In this document: piece by piece, positions 302 to 8,718 of the stretch
Layout: each line of letters begins with the position of its first letter
How positions within the stretch are numbered: the first letter of the stretch is position 1
From: an uncultured Elusimicrobium sp.
GTDB lineage: Bacteria; Elusimicrobiota; Elusimicrobia; Elusimicrobiales; Elusimicrobiaceae
Assembly (NCBI GenBank): GCA_946061795.1
Contig: CAMGSK010000056.1
Location: 1 to 9,385, forward strand
Reading direction: 5' to 3'
Length of the DNA stretch: 9,385 bases
Notes under the pieces: generated by a model
What the model saw: the letters and a program-made list of their open reading frames with translations, nothing else
What the model was told of the DNA's origin: nothing
Databases searched by the model: none
Translations under genes and position numbers: made by a program

Positions 302-1735
302 TCACCAGCGCAGATTGGGCTCGCGCGCCGCGCTGACCTCGTCAATGCGTTTGACGGGCTGGGAATGCGGGGCGTCGTGCACGGTCTGCGGTTGGGAAAC
401 GGCTTCTTCAAAAATCCGTTTTAAAGCCAGGATAAATGCGTCCAAAGACTCTTTATTTTCGGTTTCGGTCGGCTCAATCATAATCGCCTCGGGCACGATG
501 AGCGGGAAATAAATGGTCGGCGCGTAAAACCCGAAATCCAACAACCGCTTGGCCACATCGGTCGTATGCACGCCGTTCATTTTGTCCTTCTGAATGGTCA
601 GTACGCATTCGTGCATGCACGGAGCGTCAAAATATGCGGGAAATGCGTCTTTGAGGCAAACCCGGACGTAATTGGCGTTGAGCACCGCGTTTTCGGCGAT
701 GTTTTTCAGCGTTGTTCCGTCAAACTGGCGCAGATAACAATAGGCGCGCACGCAAACGGCGGCGTTGCCGTAAAACGCTTTCATTTTGCCCAAGCTTTTG
801 GGCATTTTGCCGTTTAACGTAAATTTACCGTTCTTCTTTTCCACCAGCGGTTTGGGCAAATAGGGCGCCACATGCGCCGCAGCGCCCACCGGGCCGGAGC
901 CCGGGCCGCCGCCGCCGTGGGGAGCGGCGAAGGTTTTGTGCAAGTTTAAATGCATGAGGTCCACGCCGAAATCGGCCGGCTTGGCCACACCGATCAACGC
1001 GTTGAAATTGGCCCCGTCCATATACAAAAGCGCACCCGCCGCATGCACCATATCGGCAATTTCGCGGATGTCTTTTTCAAACAGACCCACTGTGTTGGGC
1101 ACAGTCAGCATGACGACGGCCGTGCGCTCGGAAAGTGCATTTTTCAAAGCGGTCTTGTCCACACAGCCGTCGGGGCCGGAGGCGATATTGACCACCGTAT
1201 ATCCCGCCATATGCGACGTAGCCGGATTGGTGCCGTGCGCGGTGTCGGGCACGATGACTTCCGTACGTTTTTTGTCTTTGCGCGCGTCAAAATACGCCCG
1301 CGCGGTCAAAATACCCGTCAATTCTCCGTGCGCTCCGGCGGCGGGCTGCAGCGTAAAAGCGGCCAAACCCGTGATTTCTTTGAGCATTTCCTGCAGTTCA
1401 TACAACATTTCCAGAGTGCCCTGCACCGCTTCTTCCGGCGCAAACGGATGCGCCTGGGCAAAAGGTTCCAAAACGCTCAGCACGTCATAGGCTTTGGGGT
1501 TGTATTTCATGGTGCAGGAACCCAACGGATAAAAATGGCTGTCCAAACAATAATTTTTACGTGACAAATTCGTGAAATGACGCACGGCGTCCAATTCGCT
1601 CATTTCGGGCAGACGCGGCGCGCGTTTGCGCAGACATCCTGCGGGCAGATAGGCTTGCGGCGCGCCTTTCGGCGTTTCCACTCGCACGCCGCGCCGTCCG
1701 GGAACGGATTTTTCAATGCTCAATTTATTTTCCAT
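302..1735 (-). CDS. gcvPB: Glycine dehydrogenase (decarboxylating) subunit 2, P-protein C-terminal half
   Basis: This is the PLP-binding subunit of the two-subunit P-protein. With GcvPA it decarboxylates glycine and passes the aminomethyl group to the lipoyl arm of GcvH in the cytoplasm. The 477-residue length is normal for bacterial GcvPB. Visible family landmarks are HFYPLGSCTMKYNPK (about 68-81), FTLQPAAGAHGELTG (127-141), DTAHGTNPA (164-172), MDGANFNA (239-246) and NLHKTFAAPHGGGGPG (264-279). K267 of NLHKTF is the expected Schiff-base lysine. I chose the ATG at 1735: a GGAGGG Shine-Dalgarno at 1744-1749 lies 8 nt upstream, whereas the in-frame TTG at 1741 would be too close to it. The start overlaps the end of gcvPA by 11 nt, so the two subunits are probably translationally coupled. 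Nothing appears broken. Confidence 0.96.
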   Translation of the reverse strand: MENKLSIEKSVPGRRGVRVETPKGAPQAYLPAGCLRKRAPRLPEMSELDAVRHFTNLSRKNYCLDSHFYPLGSCTMKYNPKAYDVLSVLEPFAQAHPFAPEEAVQGTLEMLYELQEMLKEITGLAAFTLQPAAGAHGELTGILTARAYFDARKDKKRTEVIVPDTAHGTNPATSHMAGYTVVNIASGPDGCVDKTALKNALSERTAVVMLTVPNTVGLFEKDIREIADMVHAAGALLYMDGANFNALIGVAKPADFGVDLMHLNLHKTFAAPHGGGGPGSGPVGAAAHVAPYLPKPLVEKKNGKFTLNGKMPKSLGKMKAFYGNAAVCVRAYCYLRQFDGTTLKNIAENAVLNANYVRVCLKDAFPAYFDAPCMHECVLTIQKDKMNGVHTTDVAKRLLDFGFYAPTIYFPLIVPEAIMIEPTETENKESLDAFILALKRIFEEAVSQPQTVHDAPHSQPVKRIDEVSAAREPNLRW

Positions 1736-3059
1736 AGACAAATCCCTCCAACGCGTTTACATAAGCGCACAAATCTTCTTTGGTTTTGGTTTCCGTCGCG
1801 CACACCAGCAGCAGGTCCGCCCACTCTTTGCGCACGCGGCCCAAATCAAAGCCCGCGCCAATGCCTTTTTTGGCCAGTTTTTTCACCGCCGTTTTGGCCG
1901 GCGCATTCAGCCGCAGGACAAATTCGTTAAAGAACGGGCCTTCAAACTCCACTTTGTGCCCGGCCGCGCGCAGCAAGTCTTTTAACTGGTGCGCACGCTC
2001 CAAATTCAGCTGAGCGACTTCTTTGATTCCTTGAGGGCCCAACAAGGTCAGATAAATCACGGCGTTCAGAGCGCACAAAGCTTCGTTGGAGCAAATGTTG
2101 GAAGCGGCCCGTTCGCGCCGGATATGCTGCTCGCGCGCCTGCAGGGTCAGCACAAAAGCGCGCTGGCCGTCTTTGTCTTTGGCCACGCCCACAATGCGCC
2201 CCGGCATCTGCCGGACATATTCTTTTTTGCAGGTAAAAAGCCCCAGACCGGGCCCGCCGAAATTCATGGCATTGCCCAAACTCTGCCCCTCGGCCACCGC
2301 AAAATCCGCCCCGTACTGCCCCGGCGTTTGCAGCACGCCCAAAGACAACGGATGCACTACGCTGACCAGCAGTGCTCCCGCTCCGTGTACGGCGGAAGAA
2401 ATTTCGTCCATCGGCTCCAACTGTCCCAAAAAGTTCGGCGTCGCCGCGGCGAAGCAAGACGCTTGCTCCGTCAGTTTTTCTTTTAATGCATGCACATCCG
2501 TCACACCGTCTTTTAAAGGAATTTCTTCCAGTTTCAGCCCCGGTACGTGTTTTAAATAAGTTTTCAGCACCGTTTTATAATGCGGGTGCAGTCCGGCGGA
2601 ATACAACACCGTGCTCTTGCCGTTTATGCGCAGACACGCGGCGCAGGCTTCCGCCAGCGCGGTCGCGCCGTCATAATGGGACGCGCTGCACACGTCCATG
2701 TCAAACAACTCGCAAATACAGCTTTGAAATTCGTATATGGTTTGCAGGGTGCCCTGGCTGGCCTCGGCCTGATAAGGGGTATAAGCGGTCAAAAATTCTC
2801 CGCGGGAGCTCAAAGCGTTGACGGCGGCCGGGATAAAATGCTCCTCACAGCCCGCGCCGATGAAATTTAAAAGCGGCTTGTTTTTGGCGGCCAATTCGCG
2901 CACATGGCGCGACAGGGCGGCCTCGGTCAGCGCCTCGGGCAGATTTAAAACCGGATAACGCAAGCCTTCCGGCAGAGAAGCGAACAATTCGGAAACGGAT
3001 GAAACGCCGATTTTGGCCAGCATTTCTTTTTTATTTTCGGGGGTATTGGATGTGAACAT
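1725..3059 (-). CDS. gcvPA: Glycine dehydrogenase (decarboxylating) subunit 1, P-protein N-terminal half
   Basis: This is the non-PLP-lysine subunit of the split P-protein, which forms the active glycine decarboxylase with GcvPB. The 444 residues match the usual length. Landmarks are FIGAG (66-70), the strongly conserved EFLTAYTPYQAEASQGTLQ (88-106) and ASHYDGATALAEA (126-138). FNFGGPGLG in the middle of the chain is also typical. A cysteine (C71) follows FIGAG where many homologues have an aromatic residue. The ATG at 3059 has an AGAGGA Shine-Dalgarno 5 nt upstream (3065-3070). The 55-nt gap from gcvH contains a strong hairpin plus T-run, so gcvPA-gcvPB may be expressed at a lower level than gcvT-gcvH. 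A split P-protein is common in many bacteria and archaea but absent from E. coli, which has a fused GcvP. Confidence 0.96.
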   Translation of the reverse strand: MFTSNTPENKKEMLAKIGVSSVSELFASLPEGLRYPVLNLPEALTEAALSRHVRELAAKNKPLLNFIGAGCEEHFIPAAVNALSSRGEFLTAYTPYQAEASQGTLQTIYEFQSCICELFDMDVCSASHYDGATALAEACAACLRINGKSTVLYSAGLHPHYKTVLKTYLKHVPGLKLEEIPLKDGVTDVHALKEKLTEQASCFAAATPNFLGQLEPMDEISSAVHGAGALLVSVVHPLSLGVLQTPGQYGADFAVAEGQSLGNAMNFGGPGLGLFTCKKEYVRQMPGRIVGVAKDKDGQRAFVLTLQAREQHIRRERAASNICSNEALCALNAVIYLTLLGPQGIKEVAQLNLERAHQLKDLLRAAGHKVEFEGPFFNEFVLRLNAPAKTAVKKLAKKGIGAGFDLGRVRKEWADLLLVCATETKTKEDLCAYVNALEGFVYGK

Positions 3060-3071
3060 AAGGGTCCTCTT

Positions 3072-3100
3072 AAAAAATCCCCCGCCGCAAAGGCGGGGGA
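3072..3100 (-). terminator. Intrinsic terminator inside the gcv operon (gcvH-gcvPA gap)
   Basis: On the minus strand a 9-bp stem, TCCCCCGCC (3100-3092) with GGCGGGGGA (3086-3078), encloses a 5-nt loop and is followed by six T (3077-3072). This is a textbook rho-independent terminator. It lies 14 nt after the gcvH stop and just before the gcvPA Shine-Dalgarno (3065-3070). No clear promoter is visible between it and gcvPA, so transcription of gcvPA probably depends on partial read-through. Confidence 0.85.
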
Positions 3101-3114
3101 AAGCGGCGCGGCGT

Positions 3115-3492
3115 TTATTTAATTGTTTCTTTGTACGCGCTTAAATCCAACAGATTTTCATACTCGGCCGGTGCGGAAGACTGGATTTTAAACAGCCAGC
3201 CGTTGCCGTGCGGCTCGCGGTTAACCAGCGCGGGGTCGGAGGTCAGCGCTTCGTTGACTTCCACCACTTTTCCGCTGACGGGAGCGTAAATCTCCGAGGC
3301 GGATTTAACCGACTCCACCACGCAGCAGTTCTGTCCCGCCTGCACGTCTTGGCCCACTTTGGGCAATTCCACAAACACAACGTCTCCTATCTCTTGCTGC
3401 GCGTGGTCGCTGATTCCCACCGTGACCACCGCTCCGTCCATATGCGCCCATTCGTGGGTTTTGGCGTATTTGCTGTTTTCTGCCGTATGCAT
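3115..3492 (-). CDS. gcvH: Glycine cleavage system H protein (lipoyl carrier)
   Basis: GcvH carries the aminomethyl group from the P-protein to the T-protein on a lipoyl-lysine arm and then delivers the reduced arm to the L-protein. The protein has 125 residues, the usual size. Family features are KTHEWAHMDG near the N-terminus, VGISDHAQQEIGDVVFVELP (about 25-44), the lipoylation site VVESVKSASEIYAP (58-71, K63 being the modified lysine) and the C-terminal GNGWLFKIQ. The ATG at 3492 has an AAGGAGAA Shine-Dalgarno 5 nt upstream (3498-3505). The gene is 22 nt downstream of gcvT, so the two are clearly co-transcribed. A terminator follows it. Confidence 0.97.
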   Translation of the reverse strand: MHTAENSKYAKTHEWAHMDGAVVTVGISDHAQQEIGDVVFVELPKVGQDVQAGQNCCVVESVKSASEIYAPVSGKVVEVNEALTSDPALVNREPHGNGWLFKIQSSAPAEYENLLDLSAYKETIK

Positions 3493-3514
3493 AAATGTTC
3501 TCCTTAGAATAAAT

Positions 3515-4588
3515 TTAGACCCTGTTTTTATAAAACGGAGTTTTCACTTTTTTGGCCGGAATTTTCCGTCCGTGCACTTCTATTTCCACTTCGCAGCCTT
3601 CGGGCAAGGACGCTTCGGCGTAGCCGACGGCGATTCCCTTGAAAAGCGGCGAATAGGTGCCGCTGGTCAAAACGCCCGTTTCGGCCCCGTCTTTAAATAC
3701 TTTGCATCCCCCTCTCGGCACACCCGCGCCCGTCAGTGCAAAACCCGTCAGGCGGCGCGTCAGGCCGGCCTCTTTCTGCGCCTGCAGGGCGGCCTTGCCG
3801 ATGAAATTTTCTTTGGCCAGTTTTACCACCCAGCCGCAGCCAGCTTCATACGGGGTCTGACTTCCGTCCGCGTCCACCCCGTTCAAAAGATACCCGGCCT
3901 CCAGCCTCAGCACGTCGCGCGCGCCCAAACCGCAAGGTTTTACTCCGGCCGACAGCAGTGCGTCCCACACCTTTTCAATCGCTTCCGGGGAAGCCATAAT
4001 TTCCACGCCGTCTTCTCCGGTGTATCCGGTGCGGGTCACATACCCCGGCGCGCCGAAAAGGCTTATTTCCTTTATAGTAAAACGGGGCATTTCTTGCACG
4101 CCCTCAATCAGATTAGAAGCGTATTGCAGTGCCTTGGGCCCCTGCAGGGCAATCATGCCCCACTCCGCACTGGCGTCCGTAATGCGCACGTCAAACCCGA
4201 CGGCGTGTTTGTTAAACCAGGCCACGTCCACATCTATGCAGGCGGCGTTGACCACCACCAAAAATTTTTCCGGGGTCAGGCAAAAAGAAATCGCGTCGTC
4301 AATAATTTGGCCTTTTTCGTTGACGATGTGCGAATAAGTTCCCGCACCGGGGGCGTTTTTGATTTGGTTGGTGTTGACGTATTGCAGGAAATTCCACGCG
4401 TCCTTCCCTTCCACAAACACCTGCCCCATGTGGGACACGTCAAACATTCCGGCGGCTTCGCGCACGGCTTTGTGTTCGGCCAGAATGCTTTCAAACTGCA
4501 CGGGCAGCAGCCACCCGTGGAAATCCACCATTTTTCCGCCGGCTTTTTCGCAGGCGGCGCACAACGGAGTTTTTTTGAGGTTGTTCAC
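3515..4588 (-). CDS. gcvT: Aminomethyltransferase, glycine cleavage T protein
   Basis: GcvT takes the aminomethyl group from GcvH, releases ammonia and makes 5,10-methylene-tetrahydrofolate. The 357-residue length is standard. Motifs are MVDFHGWLLPVQF (20-32), MFDVSHMGQ (48-56), GQIIDDA (93-99, containing the expected catalytic aspartate, probably D97), RTGYTGEDGVEI (186-197) and GLGARDVLRLEAGYLL (220-235). In place of the common YGxDxxxxxTPLEAGL stretch it has NGVDADGSQTPYEAGC, a mild variation that need not affect function. The start is GTG at 4588, supported by a perfect AGGAGG Shine-Dalgarno at 4594-4599, 5 nt upstream. This is the first gene of the operon; the cluster promoter is expected in the short divergent region upstream. 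Confidence 0.96.
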   Translation of the reverse strand: MNNLKKTPLCAACEKAGGKMVDFHGWLLPVQFESILAEHKAVREAAGMFDVSHMGQVFVEGKDAWNFLQYVNTNQIKNAPGAGTYSHIVNEKGQIIDDAISFCLTPEKFLVVVNAACIDVDVAWFNKHAVGFDVRITDASAEWGMIALQGPKALQYASNLIEGVQEMPRFTIKEISLFGAPGYVTRTGYTGEDGVEIMASPEAIEKVWDALLSAGVKPCGLGARDVLRLEAGYLLNGVDADGSQTPYEAGCGWVVKLAKENFIGKAALQAQKEAGLTRRLTGFALTGAGVPRGGCKVFKDGAETGVLTSGTYSPLFKGIAVGYAEASLPEGCEVEIEVHGRKIPAKKVKTPFYKNRV

Positions 4589-5423: not shown

Positions 5424-5933
5424 TCAGCAACAGCAACAACCGTCATACCCGACATCCGGCACATTCAACAGCTTTGCATAATCAAAAGAGGCCTCTTTAT
5501 TTACACAAGTAGCCATTTCGTGGTCTTGGGAAAGCACGATTTGCCCGTCTTGGCGATAGCAGAGACATACATCTTCCGATTGATACTGAGCCGCCGACCA
5601 AATCGGATTTCCATTACAATCATAAGACGCTGTCTGATAGTTAAAATTCTTTGTTTCGCGCCAATGATCACTACTATATCTTCCTACATCTATATCCAGT
5701 TCATCAAACGAACAGCCCTCTCCTTTCCCCAGAGAGCAAGCCTCATGCGCTTGGGCAATCGTCTTCAAATTTGCAAACGCTTCCGCAAACCGGGTTTTGG
5801 TCACTGCCTTAGTATATTGAGGCAAAGCAACGGCTGACAGGATACCGATAATTAAAACAACAACAAGCAACTCTATCAGCGTAAATCCGGCGTTTTTATC
5901 GCCGGGAAAGGGTTTTTGATAAATTTTGTTCAT
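5424..5933 (-). CDS. Type IV pilin-like protein, cysteine-rich
   Basis: A 169-residue prepilin-like protein. A 16-residue basic leader ending in G16 is followed by the class signature FTLIELLVVVLIIGILSAVALPQYTKAV (from F17). Cleavage and N-methylation would occur at G16/F17, and E21 is the conserved Glu5. The first ~30 mature residues form the membrane/assembly helix; the rest should be a small periplasmic or surface head. The mature part carries ten cysteines (66, 74, 106, 123, 125, 143, 166-169), the last four forming an unusual CCCC C-terminus. I chose ATG 5933 over the in-frame TTG at 5939. No Shine-Dalgarno is visible, and a -10-like TAAATT ends 6 nt upstream. The gene looks more AT-rich than the gcv genes. 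It stands alone, away from pilus-assembly genes, so whether it is a major pilin, minor pilin or type II secretion pseudopilin is unknown. Confidence 0.88.
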   Translation of the reverse strand: MNKIYQKPFPGDKNAGFTLIELLVVVLIIGILSAVALPQYTKAVTKTRFAEAFANLKTIAQAHEACSLGKGEGCSFDELDIDVGRYSSDHWRETKNFNYQTASYDCNGNPIWSAAQYQSEDVCLCYRQDGQIVLSQDHEMATCVNKEASFDYAKLLNVPDVGYDGCCCC

Positions 5934-5939
5934 AAGCAA

Positions 5940-6162: not shown

Positions 6163-6597
6163 TTATTTCAGCGCAAAATAAACGAAATCACTGATCGAAC
6201 CGGAAACGGAGGATTTCACCAAGCTTCTCCCGTTCCAGACCAATCTGGCGGTTTTCATCGTCAGTTTTTGGTCTTCGTCTTTCTGAGCGTAAAAGCACGA
6301 AGAAGGAACAAACAAGAGCGAATCTTTCACCACGGCCGAACAGCGGGTCTGCACGTCCTTACAATTGGTGGTCAAAACGATGTGTTTGGATCCGATCCCC
6401 AACCGATGACCGCGGTTTCTGTATTTTTTTATGTCGCAGCGTTCCCAAAGGGTATGTACGGAACCCACGCTTTGCACCAGCTCCGAAGCGCGCTTATGCA
6501 CGGCCTGTCCGGCCTGGGCGGAAGAAGCGGCAAACGCCGCAGCGCAAGAAAGATACATAGCGGCAAACACCGCAGTTATTTTTAACGTTTTATTCAT
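6163..6597 (-). CDS. Small secreted/periplasmic protein of unknown function
   Basis: A 144-residue protein that I do not recognise with confidence. It has a typical signal peptide: basic MNKTLK, a hydrophobic core to about residue 22 and a likely signal-peptidase I site after AFA (21-23). The cysteine at 18 lies in the hydrophobic region but the context (YLSC) is a poor lipobox. The mature part is basic and has four cysteines (54, 79, 86, 101). The stretch CSAVVKDSLLFVPSSCF (86-102) looks loosely like the CGG-x-LI...VLTAAHC block of trypsin-like proteases, but with no histidine, so no protease activity can be claimed. The ATG at 6597 has an AAGGAGAA Shine-Dalgarno and an upstream TATAAT (6620-6625). 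The promoter region carries a long perfect inverted repeat. The gene stands alone and has its own terminator. Confidence 0.75.
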   Translation of the reverse strand: MNKTLKITAVFAAMYLSCAAAFAASSAQAGQAVHKRASELVQSVGSVHTLWERCDIKKYRNRGHRLGIGSKHIVLTTNCKDVQTRCSAVVKDSLLFVPSSCFYAQKDEDQKLTMKTARLVWNGRSLVKSSVSGSISDFVYFALK

Positions 6598-6836: not shown

Positions 6837-7361
6837 TTAATACAACAACCAGCCCGCCGCGCCGGCCAGGAGAATCAGTTTGACGGGCCCCAGTTTCAAA
6901 CGAAACAACAAGAAAAAAGAAACCGCAAAAATCGCCGCGCTTTTCCAATCTACAAAATTTTCTCCGTCACATAACACCAACGCCGCGGCGGCAATCAACC
7001 CGATAATCGCCGGGCGCAGCCCCGTAAAGGCCGCCTGTAAAGAAGCGTTTTGGCGGTGCGTTAAAAAATAGCGGGTTATCAAAATCATAATAACAAACGA
7101 CGGCAGACACACGGCCGCCGTCGCCGCGACGGAGCCCCACACGTCCCCGGAGGCGGCGTAGCCCGTATAAGTGGCCATATTGATGCCCACCGGACCGGGC
7201 GTCATTTGGCTGACGGCCACGATATCGGTAAACTCGGCGTTGCTCAGCCACGCATGTTTAAAAACCACCTCGTTTTGAATAAACGAAATCATCGGATATC
7301 CGCCGCCAAAATTAAAAAGCCCTATCTTAAAAAAGGTCTTAAAAATTTGCCAGTAAATCAT
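6837..7361 (-). CDS. Chromate transporter (CHR) family protein, short-chain subunit B
   Basis: A 174-residue membrane protein of the short-chain CHR/ChrA family (half of a full-length ChrA). It begins MIYWQIFKTFFKIGLFNFGGGYPMISFI. The FGGGYPM block (18-24) and QMTPGPVGINMAT (52-64) are hallmark CHR motifs, followed by several hydrophobic segments ending in LLAGAAGWLLY. Short-chain CHR proteins usually occur as adjacent pairs that work together, as here. The ATG at 7361 has GGAGG and AAGGA just upstream and overlaps the preceding gene's stop as ATGA, so translation is probably coupled. An open frame extends upstream to 7505, but it overlaps the first transporter gene and lacks family sequence. 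The family is named for chromate efflux; the real substrate (chromate, sulfate or another anion) cannot be read from the sequence. Confidence 0.9.
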   Translation of the reverse strand: MIYWQIFKTFFKIGLFNFGGGYPMISFIQNEVVFKHAWLSNAEFTDIVAVSQMTPGPVGINMATYTGYAASGDVWGSVAATAAVCLPSFVIMILITRYFLTHRQNASLQAAFTGLRPAIIGLIAAAALVLCDGENFVDWKSAAIFAVSFFLLFRLKLGPVKLILLAGAAGWLLY

Positions 7362-7894
7362 TGTCCTTCCCTCCGGCAAAACAGCCATCCGCCCAGACCG
7401 GCCAGCAGAACAATATAAGCGGGAGAAAATCTCCCTTTCCATACGGCCAGCGCGCACAGCGCGGGCACCCATGCGCTTTTCCAGCTCAGCCCGGCCGAAC
7501 GCCACAGTGTAAACACCGGCACGGCAATCAGCGCCACCACCGCCGGGCGGATACCGGCAAAAATGCGGGCGGCCGTCGGGTTTTGCCTAAAGTTATGAAA
7601 AAACAGGGCGATCGCCAAAATAATGCCGAACGAAGGCAACGCCGCCCCCAGCGCAGAAGCGACGCTTCCCCAAAAACCGCACAATTTGTATCCGCAAAAC
7701 ACGGCCATGTTGACCGCCAAAATGCCCGGGGCGGCCTGGGCCATGGCCGTCAGGTCCAAAAATTCTTTTTTGTTTATCCAGCCGCGTTTGGTGACGATTT
7801 CCGCTTCTATCAGCGGCAGCATGGCGTACCCGCCCCCCAGCGTAAACAAGCCGATTTTGAAGAAAATAAAGAAAAGAAAAAAAAGACGCTTCAT
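7358..7894 (-). CDS. Chromate transporter (CHR) family protein, short-chain subunit A
   Basis: A 178-residue membrane protein, the partner half of the CHR pair. LGGGYAMLPLIEAEIVTKRGW (19-39) and QAAPGILAVNMA (53-64) are the N-terminal CHR motifs; further hydrophobic segments follow and the protein ends CRREGQ. The start is the ATG at 7894; the upstream in-frame TTG at 7921 adds residues that do not look like the family. There is no Shine-Dalgarno; TACAAT ends 6 nt before the ATG, suggesting a leaderless mRNA. The gene lies 47 nt behind the HTH regulator on the same strand and overlaps the second CHR gene by 4 nt. The regulator could influence it by read-through, although a hairpin over the start codon may block that. 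Substrate unknown. Confidence 0.9.
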   Translation of the reverse strand: MKRLFFLFFIFFKIGLFTLGGGYAMLPLIEAEIVTKRGWINKKEFLDLTAMAQAAPGILAVNMAVFCGYKLCGFWGSVASALGAALPSFGIILAIALFFHNFRQNPTAARIFAGIRPAVVALIAVPVFTLWRSAGLSWKSAWVPALCALAVWKGRFSPAYIVLLAGLGGWLFCRREGQ

Positions 7895-7941: not shown

Positions 7942-8172
7942 TTATTTAAACAGCTCTCCTTCCGGGATTTTCAAACCGGCGGCGATTTTGCGCACATTGA
8001 GCAGCGCCAGATTGCGCTCCCCGCGCTCCACGCCACCCATATACGTGCGGTCCAAACCCACTTCCAGCGCAAACGCTTCCTGCGAATATCCCGCCGCCCG
8101 GCGCAGCGCGCGCACACGCGCGCCAAAACGCCGCAAATATTTTCTGTCCGCGGGGGAATATCTGTTTTCCAT
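7942..8172 (-). CDS. XRE-family HTH regulator resembling restriction-modification controller (C) proteins
   Basis: A 76-residue single-domain helix-turn-helix protein. The segment [46 protein letters not shown] (19-63) is a complete five-helix XRE domain. [16 protein letters not shown] (39-54) is the turn and recognition-helix pattern shared by C proteins of R-M systems (such as C.AhdI and C.Esp1396I) and by related stand-alone regulators. Its size also fits C proteins. The ATG at 8172 is the only start: an in-frame stop lies about 27 nt upstream. There is no Shine-Dalgarno, and a -10-like TATGCT ends 6 nt before ATG; leaderless mRNAs are common for C genes. A C-box-like operator lies directly upstream, arguing for autoregulation. 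No restriction or methyltransferase gene is seen; neighbours are the CHR pair downstream and a divergent pilin. That it is a C protein is inference; that it is an XRE regulator is firm. Confidence 0.9.
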
Positions 8173-8178
8173 ACTTAC

Positions 8179-8184
8179 AGCATA
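8179..8184 (-). promoter_or_regulatory. -10 element of the HTH regulator gene (probably leaderless)
   Basis: TATGCT on the minus strand ends 6 nt before the ATG at 8172. The -35 position, about 17 nt upstream, falls inside the operator-like repeat and has no good consensus, as is typical for C-protein promoters that depend on activation. Confidence 0.45.
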
Positions 8185-8190
8185 TCCGTT

Positions 8191-8223
8191 TGATACTTAT
8201 CAGTACACGGACTATAAGTATCA
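8191..8223. promoter_or_regulatory. C-box-like operator between the HTH regulator and the divergent pilin gene
   Basis: TGATACTTAT (8191-8200) and ATAAGTATCA (8214-8223) are perfect inverted repeats separated by 13 bp. The minus-strand core ACTTATAGTCCGTGT (8219-8205) matches, from memory, the core of the C.Esp1396I operator. A third half-site (ATACTTA, 8171-8177) overlaps the regulator's start codon. The centres of the three half-sites are 22 bp apart (8174, 8196, 8218), placing them on the same DNA face. The site covers about -19 to -51 of the regulator promoter and the -35 region of the pilin promoter. Confidence 0.7.
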
Positions 8224-8232
8224 TTTTTTTGT

Positions 8233-8238
8233 TATAAT
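8233..8238 (+). promoter_or_regulatory. -10 element of the second pilin-like gene
   Basis: A perfect TATAAT lies 24 nt before the ATG at 8263, with an AAGGAGAA Shine-Dalgarno in the leader. The -35 window (about 8210-8215) lacks a consensus and lies within the operator-like repeat, so expression probably depends on whatever binds there. Confidence 0.6.
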
Positions 8239-8262
8239 AACTTATCCGCTCAAGGAGAATTT

Positions 8263-8718
8263 ATGAAAAAAGGATTTACGCTCATAGAGCTTTTGGTGGT
8301 GGTTTTGATTATCGGCATTTTGTCGGCCATCGCCTTGCCCCAATATCAAAAGGCGGTGGCCAAAAGCCGCTATACGCAGCTGATAACAGCAGGCAAAAAT
8401 TTGAAAGACGCCATGGAAGTGTACTATATGGCCAACGGAAATTATCCAAATTTCTGGCATGAATTGGACATTCAGTACCTGGACTGTGAAGAAAGCGCCG
8501 CCGGACGCTATATGCTATGGTGCGACAAATTCGCCGTGGATATGTTTTTAGACGTAAACGTAAATTTAGCTTTATATGATATGCACGATGTGGCGGATAA
8601 AAAAGACAGAAGCCAGGCAAAAAGCACGTATATCGTTTGGCTGGACCATTCCGAGCACCCGGGCAAAACGGAGTGTCAAAGCAAGATTTCAGGACTTTGC
8701 CAAAGCATGGGTTATTAA
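8263..8718 (+). CDS. Type IV pilin-like protein
   Basis: A 151-residue prepilin-like protein with a very short leader: MKKG then FTLIELLVVVLIIGILSAIALPQYQKAVAKSR. Cleavage is expected after G4, with E9 as Glu5 of the mature protein. The N-terminal helix is nearly identical to that of the pilin at 5424-5933, while the heads are unrelated apart from a shared aromatic/cysteine-rich look. Four cysteines (75, 87, 138, 146) could form two disulfides, the last pair making a C-terminal loop like the D-region of type IV pilins. The start has a clear AAGGAGAA Shine-Dalgarno. The gene is divergent from the HTH regulator and shares its operator region. It stands alone and ends at a strong terminator. Its role (structural pilin, minor pilin or pseudopilin of a secretion or competence machine) cannot be told from sequence. 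Confidence 0.9.
   Translation: MKKGFTLIELLVVVLIIGILSAIALPQYQKAVAKSRYTQLITAGKNLKDAMEVYYMANGNYPNFWHELDIQYLDCEESAAGRYMLWCDKFAVDMFLDVNVNLALYDMHDVADKKDRSQAKSTYIVWLDHSEHPGKTECQSKISGLCQSMGY

Follow-up and report, generated by a model that had tools for sequence, protein, structure and literature searches.

A C-protein-family regulator and exchangeable pilin genes diverge from one predicted operator in a genus of gut Elusimicrobiaceae

An orphan regulator of the C-protein family and a set of exchangeable pilins form a module, larger than first reported, that is present in 13 of 66 genomes of one genus, whose members carry the names Avelusimicrobium and Elusimicrobium/Elusimicrobiaceae. The two genes of the module, regulator and pilin, diverge from one predicted operator, and the arrangement of sequence elements suggests that the regulator probably acts as an activator at its own promoter and as a repressor at that of the pilin. 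Homology, operator conservation, sequence geometry, the pairing of the two genes and the exchange of the divergent gene were established by direct comparison. C proteins are timers of restriction genes. The sequence analysed (9,385 nt, referred to below as the window) is the whole of contig C56 from an uncultured Elusimicrobium sp. assembly of 1.30 Mb in 159 contigs that is 85.6% complete.

The regulator gene (7942–8172, minus strand) encodes an XRE protein of 76 residues (Pfam HTH_3) that carries the 14-letter recognition pattern noted in the original prediction. It starts with ATG and is predicted to be leaderless; no ribosome site was seen upstream of the start codon. The best solved relatives are C.AhdI (E 1.3e-16), C.BclI, NHTF and C.Esp1396I, and an AlphaFold model of the protein (pLDDT 92.6) gave C.AhdI (TM 0.93 by target) and C.BclI as best fold matches. 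Mutation of T36, Y37 or R46 of C.Esp1396I hurts binding, according to the published study (PMC4041747). With a numbering offset assigned by us, these residues align with T43, Y44 and R53 of the regulator, which are invariant in a 17-row alignment; S52 of C.Esp1396I aligns with N59 and is not kept. The C-protein likeness originally noted therefore holds at the level of sequence relatives and fold match, and sequence and model support placement of the regulator in the C-protein sequence family, as a predicted small five-helix HTH protein of the XRE/HTH_3 controller fold. We file it under that family, and not as a restriction-modification (R-M) controller, because linkage to R-M genes, sought through methyltransferases, was not found.

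The predicted operator, common to both promoters, is a 33-nt element (8191–8223, minus strand) that comprises two tandem C-box sites. The OL-type box, TACTTATAGTC (8210–8220, minus strand), is distal to the regulator gene and proximal to the pilin promoter; the OR-type box, TACTGATAAGT (8195–8205, minus strand), is proximal to the regulator gene and forms the half that varies in relatives. The operator was scored with a profile built from 54 distinct sites, all from relatives outside the genus. There, a site with at most 12 mismatches from a 33-nt consensus was found upstream of 61 of 69 loci, the consensus that seeded the search having been written by eye after the window had been seen. The C-box-type operator predicted upstream of the regulator was recovered by this profile, which contains no sequence of the genus, at 40.9 bits (8191–8223, minus strand); the next best site in the window scored −1.7, and the background in the window had a mean of −55 (sd 12.5; 18,706 positions). 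The other 12 modules scored 29–40 bits, and the best of 47 slot loci that lack the regulator scored 4.0.

An original basis for the operator was a perfect 10-bp inverted repeat, TGATACTTAT / ATAAGTATCA, at 8191–8200 and 8214–8223. The repeat is indeed present. Such repeats occurred at a mean of 0.1 in block shuffles of the window (20 shuffles), and the actual window has five clusters of them, the operator's included, so the repeat by itself is weak evidence. It is perfect in only one of the 13 orthologous operators, that of this genome, and it was rejected as the operator. What is kept in all 13 operators is GATACTTATAGTCCGTGTACT, in which two TACT half-boxes stand at a distance of 15 bp; the right half that comes after it is variable. 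It is the tandem box pair that is conserved, not the inverted repeat. Within the pair, relatives preserve the OR box poorly, with TTAAAA in place of TATA in L046.

The 15-nt core ACTTATAGTCCGTGT (8205–8219, minus strand) is the sole copy with fewer than 3 mismatches in the genome assembly. Its predicted match to the C.Esp1396I operator, judged on the printed oligonucleotides, is complete (15/15) on the assumption that the base missing from oligonucleotide 25OL is C. This oligonucleotide is printed as ATGTGACTTATAGTC-GTGTGATTA, with 24 letters for a "25-mer" and an added hyphen, and 19OR as TGTGTGATTATAGTCAACA (PMC3758141). Counted on these oligonucleotides, the spacing of the Esp1396I operator is the same as here, 15 bp between TATA centres (PMC3758141). 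Across the genus, a 19-nt operator core is exact in 13 of 66 genomes, with a single copy in each; an intact regulator is present in precisely these 13. Six further matches to the core in the 66 genomes all have 3 mismatches and do not exceed the 15 given by a reversed-pattern control. A regulon was rejected, as there is one operator per genome.

The divergent gene (8263–8718, plus strand) encodes a type IV pilin of 151 residues with the prepilin cleavage/methylation motif KKGFTLIELL, matched by PF07963 and TIGR02532, both above their cut-offs. A ribosome-binding site, AAGGAG, was identified by reading at 8252–8257 (plus strand). The pilin promoter is predicted to have an extended −10 element, TGTTATAAT (8230–8238, plus strand), 9 nt from the operator edge; the perfect TATAAT expected beside the operator was found within it, at 8233–8238. 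The regulator is predicted, by similarity, to have a weak −10 element, TATGCT (4 of 6; 8179–8184, minus strand), 6 nt before its ATG. The −10 hexamers were picked by similarity in a short range and not mapped, those of the regulators matching at 3–4 of 6 positions. The −35 regions of both the regulator and the pilin are weak.

The spacing of these elements is nearly constant among the modules. A −10-like hexamer stands 6–7 nt ahead of the regulator ATG in all 13, with the centre of OL 30 nt from it in 13 of 13 and the centre of OR 15 nt upstream of it, OR being 15 nt from OL by definition. The operator is separated from the regulator ATG by 18–19 nt in 13/13 modules (in L050 measured to an ATG that lies 3 nt before the one at 21 nt), and from the start by 18–20 nt at 45 of 61 distant sites, where start codons were chosen mechanically. 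On the other side, the TATAAT of the divergent gene lies 7–9 nt from the operator in 12 of 13 modules, with OL 16–18 nt and OR 31–33 nt upstream, and an extended TGN-TATAAT precedes the divergent gene in 11 of 13. In the remaining module, that of G041, the TATAAT is 18 nt from the operator, with OL 27 nt and OR 42 nt upstream; OL would there (L047:2261–2836) sit near the activating distance from the TATAAT of a lipoprotein-like gene.

In the published C-protein scheme, as given in PMC4041747, OL activates and OR represses; by that scheme, occupancy of OL would be expected to leave the regulator on and the pilin off. We propose that the pilin promoter, with its perfect extended −10, would be on by default, and that the regulator promoter, with a weak −10 and a weak −35, would need its own protein. 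At low levels, OL would be occupied by a dimer; its centre, 30 nt upstream from the −10 of the regulator, lies at the activating position of C-protein systems. For the pilin, whose −10 follows OL at 16–18 nt in 12 of 13 modules, the same site would be in a blocking position. A single binding event at OL could thus switch on the regulator and shut off the pilin, because it would activate one side and block the other. At higher levels OR would fill and the regulator would be limited.

A more elaborate form of this scheme is possible, and we put it forward tentatively: a bistable surface switch without DNA rearrangement, in which one operator would serve two promoters in mirror image, populations would contain pilin-on and pilin-off cells, and different species could exchange the pilin, or some other envelope protein, in the slot while the switch stays as it is. 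OL would then mean on for the regulator and off for the pilin, and OR the reverse. In the case of the PvuII system, hysteresis is reported (PMC3695507). If the bistable reading is true, the orphan controllers of Planctomycetota with the same operator would be further uses of the same device.

A counterpoint to repression of the pilin is that in 12 of 13 modules OR precedes the pilin −10 by 31–33 nt, a position from which activation of the pilin would be possible. The regulator might then activate the pilin as well as itself, the distance from OR to the pilin −10 nearly mirroring that from OL to the regulator −10 (31–33 vs. 30 nt); the weak −35 of the pilin and the shifted TATAAT of the swapped gene in G041, with OL 27 nt upstream, also point in this direction. 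We consider this rather unlikely, since OL, the better conserved box, is at the blocking distance of 16–18 nt from the pilin −10, and the extended −10 in 11 of 13 modules suggests that no activator is needed. Furthermore, in G021 (L081:3380–3495, with chrA on the plus strand) a pilin persists without the regulator and, by our reading, with only a TGATAC-like trace of the operator beside its promoter. Persistence of this pilin beside a decayed operator is consistent with a promoter that works without the regulator, and we continue with the reading in which the regulator would activate itself and repress the pilin.

Intact orthologs of the regulator (64–80% identity) were found in 12 other members of the genus when 101 genomes, 61 of them of the genus, were searched. 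The five remaining genus genomes (G101–G105) were searched for the regulator and gave no match, and a weak match in G030 (E 4e-4, 32% identity, longer frame) was not counted as an ortholog. G027 (L051:9700–10010) has only the C-terminal half of the regulator, with no pilin and no operator; here the module has decayed as a whole.

All 13 modules occupy one chromosomal slot, with an amidase gene on one side and a chrA pair on the other. In the window, these flanks are an N-acetylmuramoyl-L-alanine amidase gene that runs off the contig end (8822–9385, minus strand; PF01520) and the first chrA, a chromate transporter gene (7358–7891, minus strand; PF02417), which is not counted as a target. A further 48 slots lack the regulator (47 plus the G027 remnant locus), and in 22 of them the amidase and chrA matches are no more than 130 bp apart. 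The survey left out G006, G037 and G105 (no chrA match), G038 (second chrA only) and G059 (contig end); L079 (G026) was counted among the 48 though the fragment shows no amidase match. The slot is a site of gene exchange. As a separate observation, varied secreted-looking or repeat-rich (WPxx) proteins are encoded in the slots of L053, L054, L056, L057, L059, L061–L063 and L065–L067, and likewise in those of L070, L079 and L092, on the strand opposite the flanks.

Regulator and operator are tied to a pilin gene, as originally proposed, in 12 of the 13 genomes. A pilin occupies the slot in 12 of 13 loci with the regulator vs. 3 of 48 without it (Fisher p 3e-9, with the frameshifted pilin of G048 counted as a pilin). 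The pattern of regulator presence amounts to 11 changes on a tree of amidase and chrA, and among 8 independent pairs on the starred branches an average of 6.8 changed in the same direction and 0 in the opposite one (median sign-test p 0.016). In G025, G039 and G054 (loci L039, L041 and L046) the regulator–pilin pair is inverted as a unit and still divergent. These three belong to one nine-member clade whose six other members lack the regulator, a pattern that fits an old module lost repeatedly. Since three of the 48 loci without the regulator have a pilin in the slot, pilins can live without it.

The two sides of the module differ in how well they are kept. Mean pairwise identity over the 13 modules is 77.7% for the regulator and 62.5% for the flanking proteins, and the C-termini of the pilins are 26% identical (11 pilins, excluding G041 and G048). 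Beyond the N-terminus, the window pilin shares 68% identity with that of G044, from a different part of the tree. G041 is the sister of G044, their regulators differing at 4 of 83 residues, and it carries in place of the pilin a gene for a 191-aa protein that is lipoprotein-like by reading of its N-terminus. The contrast in identity, together with the cargo of G041 and G044, indicates exchange of the divergent gene beside a conserved regulator and operator. The divergent genes thus comprise 12 pilins, one of them frameshifted, and one lipoprotein-like gene, and the lipoprotein-like cargo of G041 and the frameshifted pilin of G048 are a counterpoint, because they show that the pilin is not obligatory. 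In G048 (L050:9275–9900) the pilin is split by the frameshift, a possible assembly error, and the regulator and operator are intact.

It might be argued that the regulator controls only itself and that the pilin is a passenger whose promoter stands beside the operator by chance. Pilins are abundant, with 75 prepilin-motif (N_methyl) matches in the 1.3 Mb genome of this organism, G000 (G011 has at least 150), and the cargo of the slot is varied. We regard the passenger explanation as improbable in view of the constant gap of 7–9 nt between operator and TATAAT in 12 of 13 modules, the way pilin presence tracks regulator presence, inversion of the pair as a unit in three genomes, and preservation of the divergent arrangement while the pilins are exchanged. 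With one operator and 75 prepilin-motif matches in the genome, a switch of pilin expression as we propose would serve one pilin among many.

C proteins have their family history in R-M systems, and the regulator might be left over from such a system or control one elsewhere in the genome. A linked methyltransferase gene, which would mark an R-M controller, was found at none of the 13 modules: iterated HMMs of the N6/N4 type detected none in the 9.4-kb window contig or in the 12–20 kb that surround the other 12 modules, and regular expressions for C5 and amino-type methyltransferase motifs detected none in the flanks of the 13. The genome of this organism (85.6% complete) has no match to PF01555, PF00145 or PF02086. 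These families are matched by 5, 3 and 6 of the 13 genomes, respectively, and at least one of the three by 9 of 13 if a weak match in G018 is counted, with no match to any of the three in G000, G031, G053 and G054. A search for R-M genes elsewhere in the genome with the same box, as the original prediction had suggested, yielded no second operator with fewer than 3 mismatches, and the same was true of all 13 genomes (assemblies 72–99% complete). An R-M target in trans is disfavoured by the single operator per genome and by the lack of a match to these methyltransferase families in the organism's own genome.

Relatives outside the genus were collected by a scan of GTDB contigs. From the 159 found, we retained 80 loci (11 of the genus and 69 outside, including 34 from Planctomycetota and 17 from Pseudomonadota); a plasmid search returned 65 records with relatives of less than 80% coverage. 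In a regulator tree from which three too-short distant rows had been dropped and whose forks are poorly supported, the 13 regulators form one clade (SH-aLRT 96). A neighbouring group of 36 rows, mainly Planctomycetota, joins the genus clade with a support of only 80. A methyltransferase is nearby in 5 of these 36, among them L111, L144 and L150, whose methyltransferases were missed by the iterated HMMs and added separately. Over all 69 distant loci, a methyltransferase was found in the flank of 17 and none was found at 52, and of the 46 loci flanked on each side by 3 kb or more, 11 have one; C5 methyltransferases, sought by regular expression only, were not found in the distant loci. The suggestion that the switch lost its R-M genes in this lineage was not borne out, as 31 of the 36 loci of the neighbouring group have no methyltransferase nearby.

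The family history, with a methyltransferase near 17 of 69 outside relatives, and the presence of at least one of the three methyltransferase families in 9 of 13 genomes are the points in favour of an R-M leftover or a distant R-M target. We judge such an origin or role very improbable since none of the 13 genomes showed another operator copy at fewer than 3 mismatches, no methyltransferase was detected in the module flanks and the incomplete own genome has no match to the three Pfam families; an operator core kept exact among species with a mean identity of 62.5% in the flanking proteins is also at odds with a relic. Scarcely credible is control of the downstream chrA genes as the regulator's main targets, as the original prediction had allowed: in 10 of 13 modules the chrA pair does follow the regulator gene on its strand, 50 nt away in the window, but a chrA match occurs in 63 of the 66 genomes of the genus, the majority of which lack the regulator, and the inverted modules of G025, G039 and G054 (3 of 13) point the pilin, not the regulator, toward chrA, so this candidate was rejected.

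A motif search found no prepilin genes opposite the regulator in the 69 distant loci. Pairing with a pilin is so far confined to this genus, and orphan members of the family are common. The idea that divergent genes outside the genus generally encode envelope proteins was only partly borne out: of the 52 distant loci in which no methyltransferase was found, 44 have a divergent ORF of at least 90 aa, with an N-terminal hydrophobic stretch in 17 of the 44. Pfam and PADLOC scans at the distant loci covered 91 chosen neighbouring proteins and were read from the first 25 of 47 and 90 families. Individual species have several such loci, with three orphan regulators in Planctomycetales bacterium 10988 (L124–L126) and two in Blastopirellula marina (L129, L135), each with a similar 33-nt operator and no methyltransferase found nearby. 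Many other Planctomycetota loci likewise have an orphan regulator and operator, in many cases facing a membrane or lipoprotein-like gene; for six of the divergent genes at these orphan loci there was no Pfam match above cut-off.

The module resembles C.AhdI, C.BclI and C.Esp1396I in regulator sequence, predicted fold and DNA-contact residues, in tandem boxes 15 bp apart with OR over the −35 region, and in a start codon close behind the −10; unlike those systems, it has no methyltransferase detected at the locus and has a pilin as the divergent gene. The closest published logic that we found is that of C.Kpn2I, whose gene is also divergent from its target and which is reported to block the −35 of the divergent methyltransferase promoter and thereby to raise its own transcription (PMC6237814). 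It differs in that the target is a methyltransferase gene and the negative-feedback site is inside the C.Kpn2I gene itself (PMC6237814). NHTF of Neisseria (PDB 3vk0), third-ranked among the sequence relatives of the regulator, shares the C-protein-like XRE fold and is reported to be an auto-repressor that controls a non-restriction gene, glnD (PMC5722371, PMC10470515). In contrast to the module, it is reported to repress downstream genes, with no divergent pilin or shared C-box operator described in the text consulted (PMC5722371, PMC10470515). NceR of Neisseria gonorrhoeae is likewise reported to be an XRE regulator acting on a surface-protein gene, ompA, and differs in its iron-dependent activation (PMC10470515). 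Among the open-licence papers that our searches listed, titles and abstract openings mention neither a C protein that controls a pilin nor pilin control in these gut bacteria.

The host gut bacteria carry dozens of pilin genes, and a conserved orphan branch acting on an exchangeable pilin would show a restriction timing device reused for surface variation. The 33-nt operator profile offers a means to find other orphan uses. Elsewhere in the window, a second pilin gene (5424–5936) stands without an operator. A gcvT-gcvH-gcvPA-gcvPB glycine cleavage cluster was identified by ORF reading at 302–4588, and similar genes accompany the slot in relatives. A secreted-looking protein with no Pfam match is encoded at 6163–6597; in relatives, genes similar to it in place and length come after the chrA pair.
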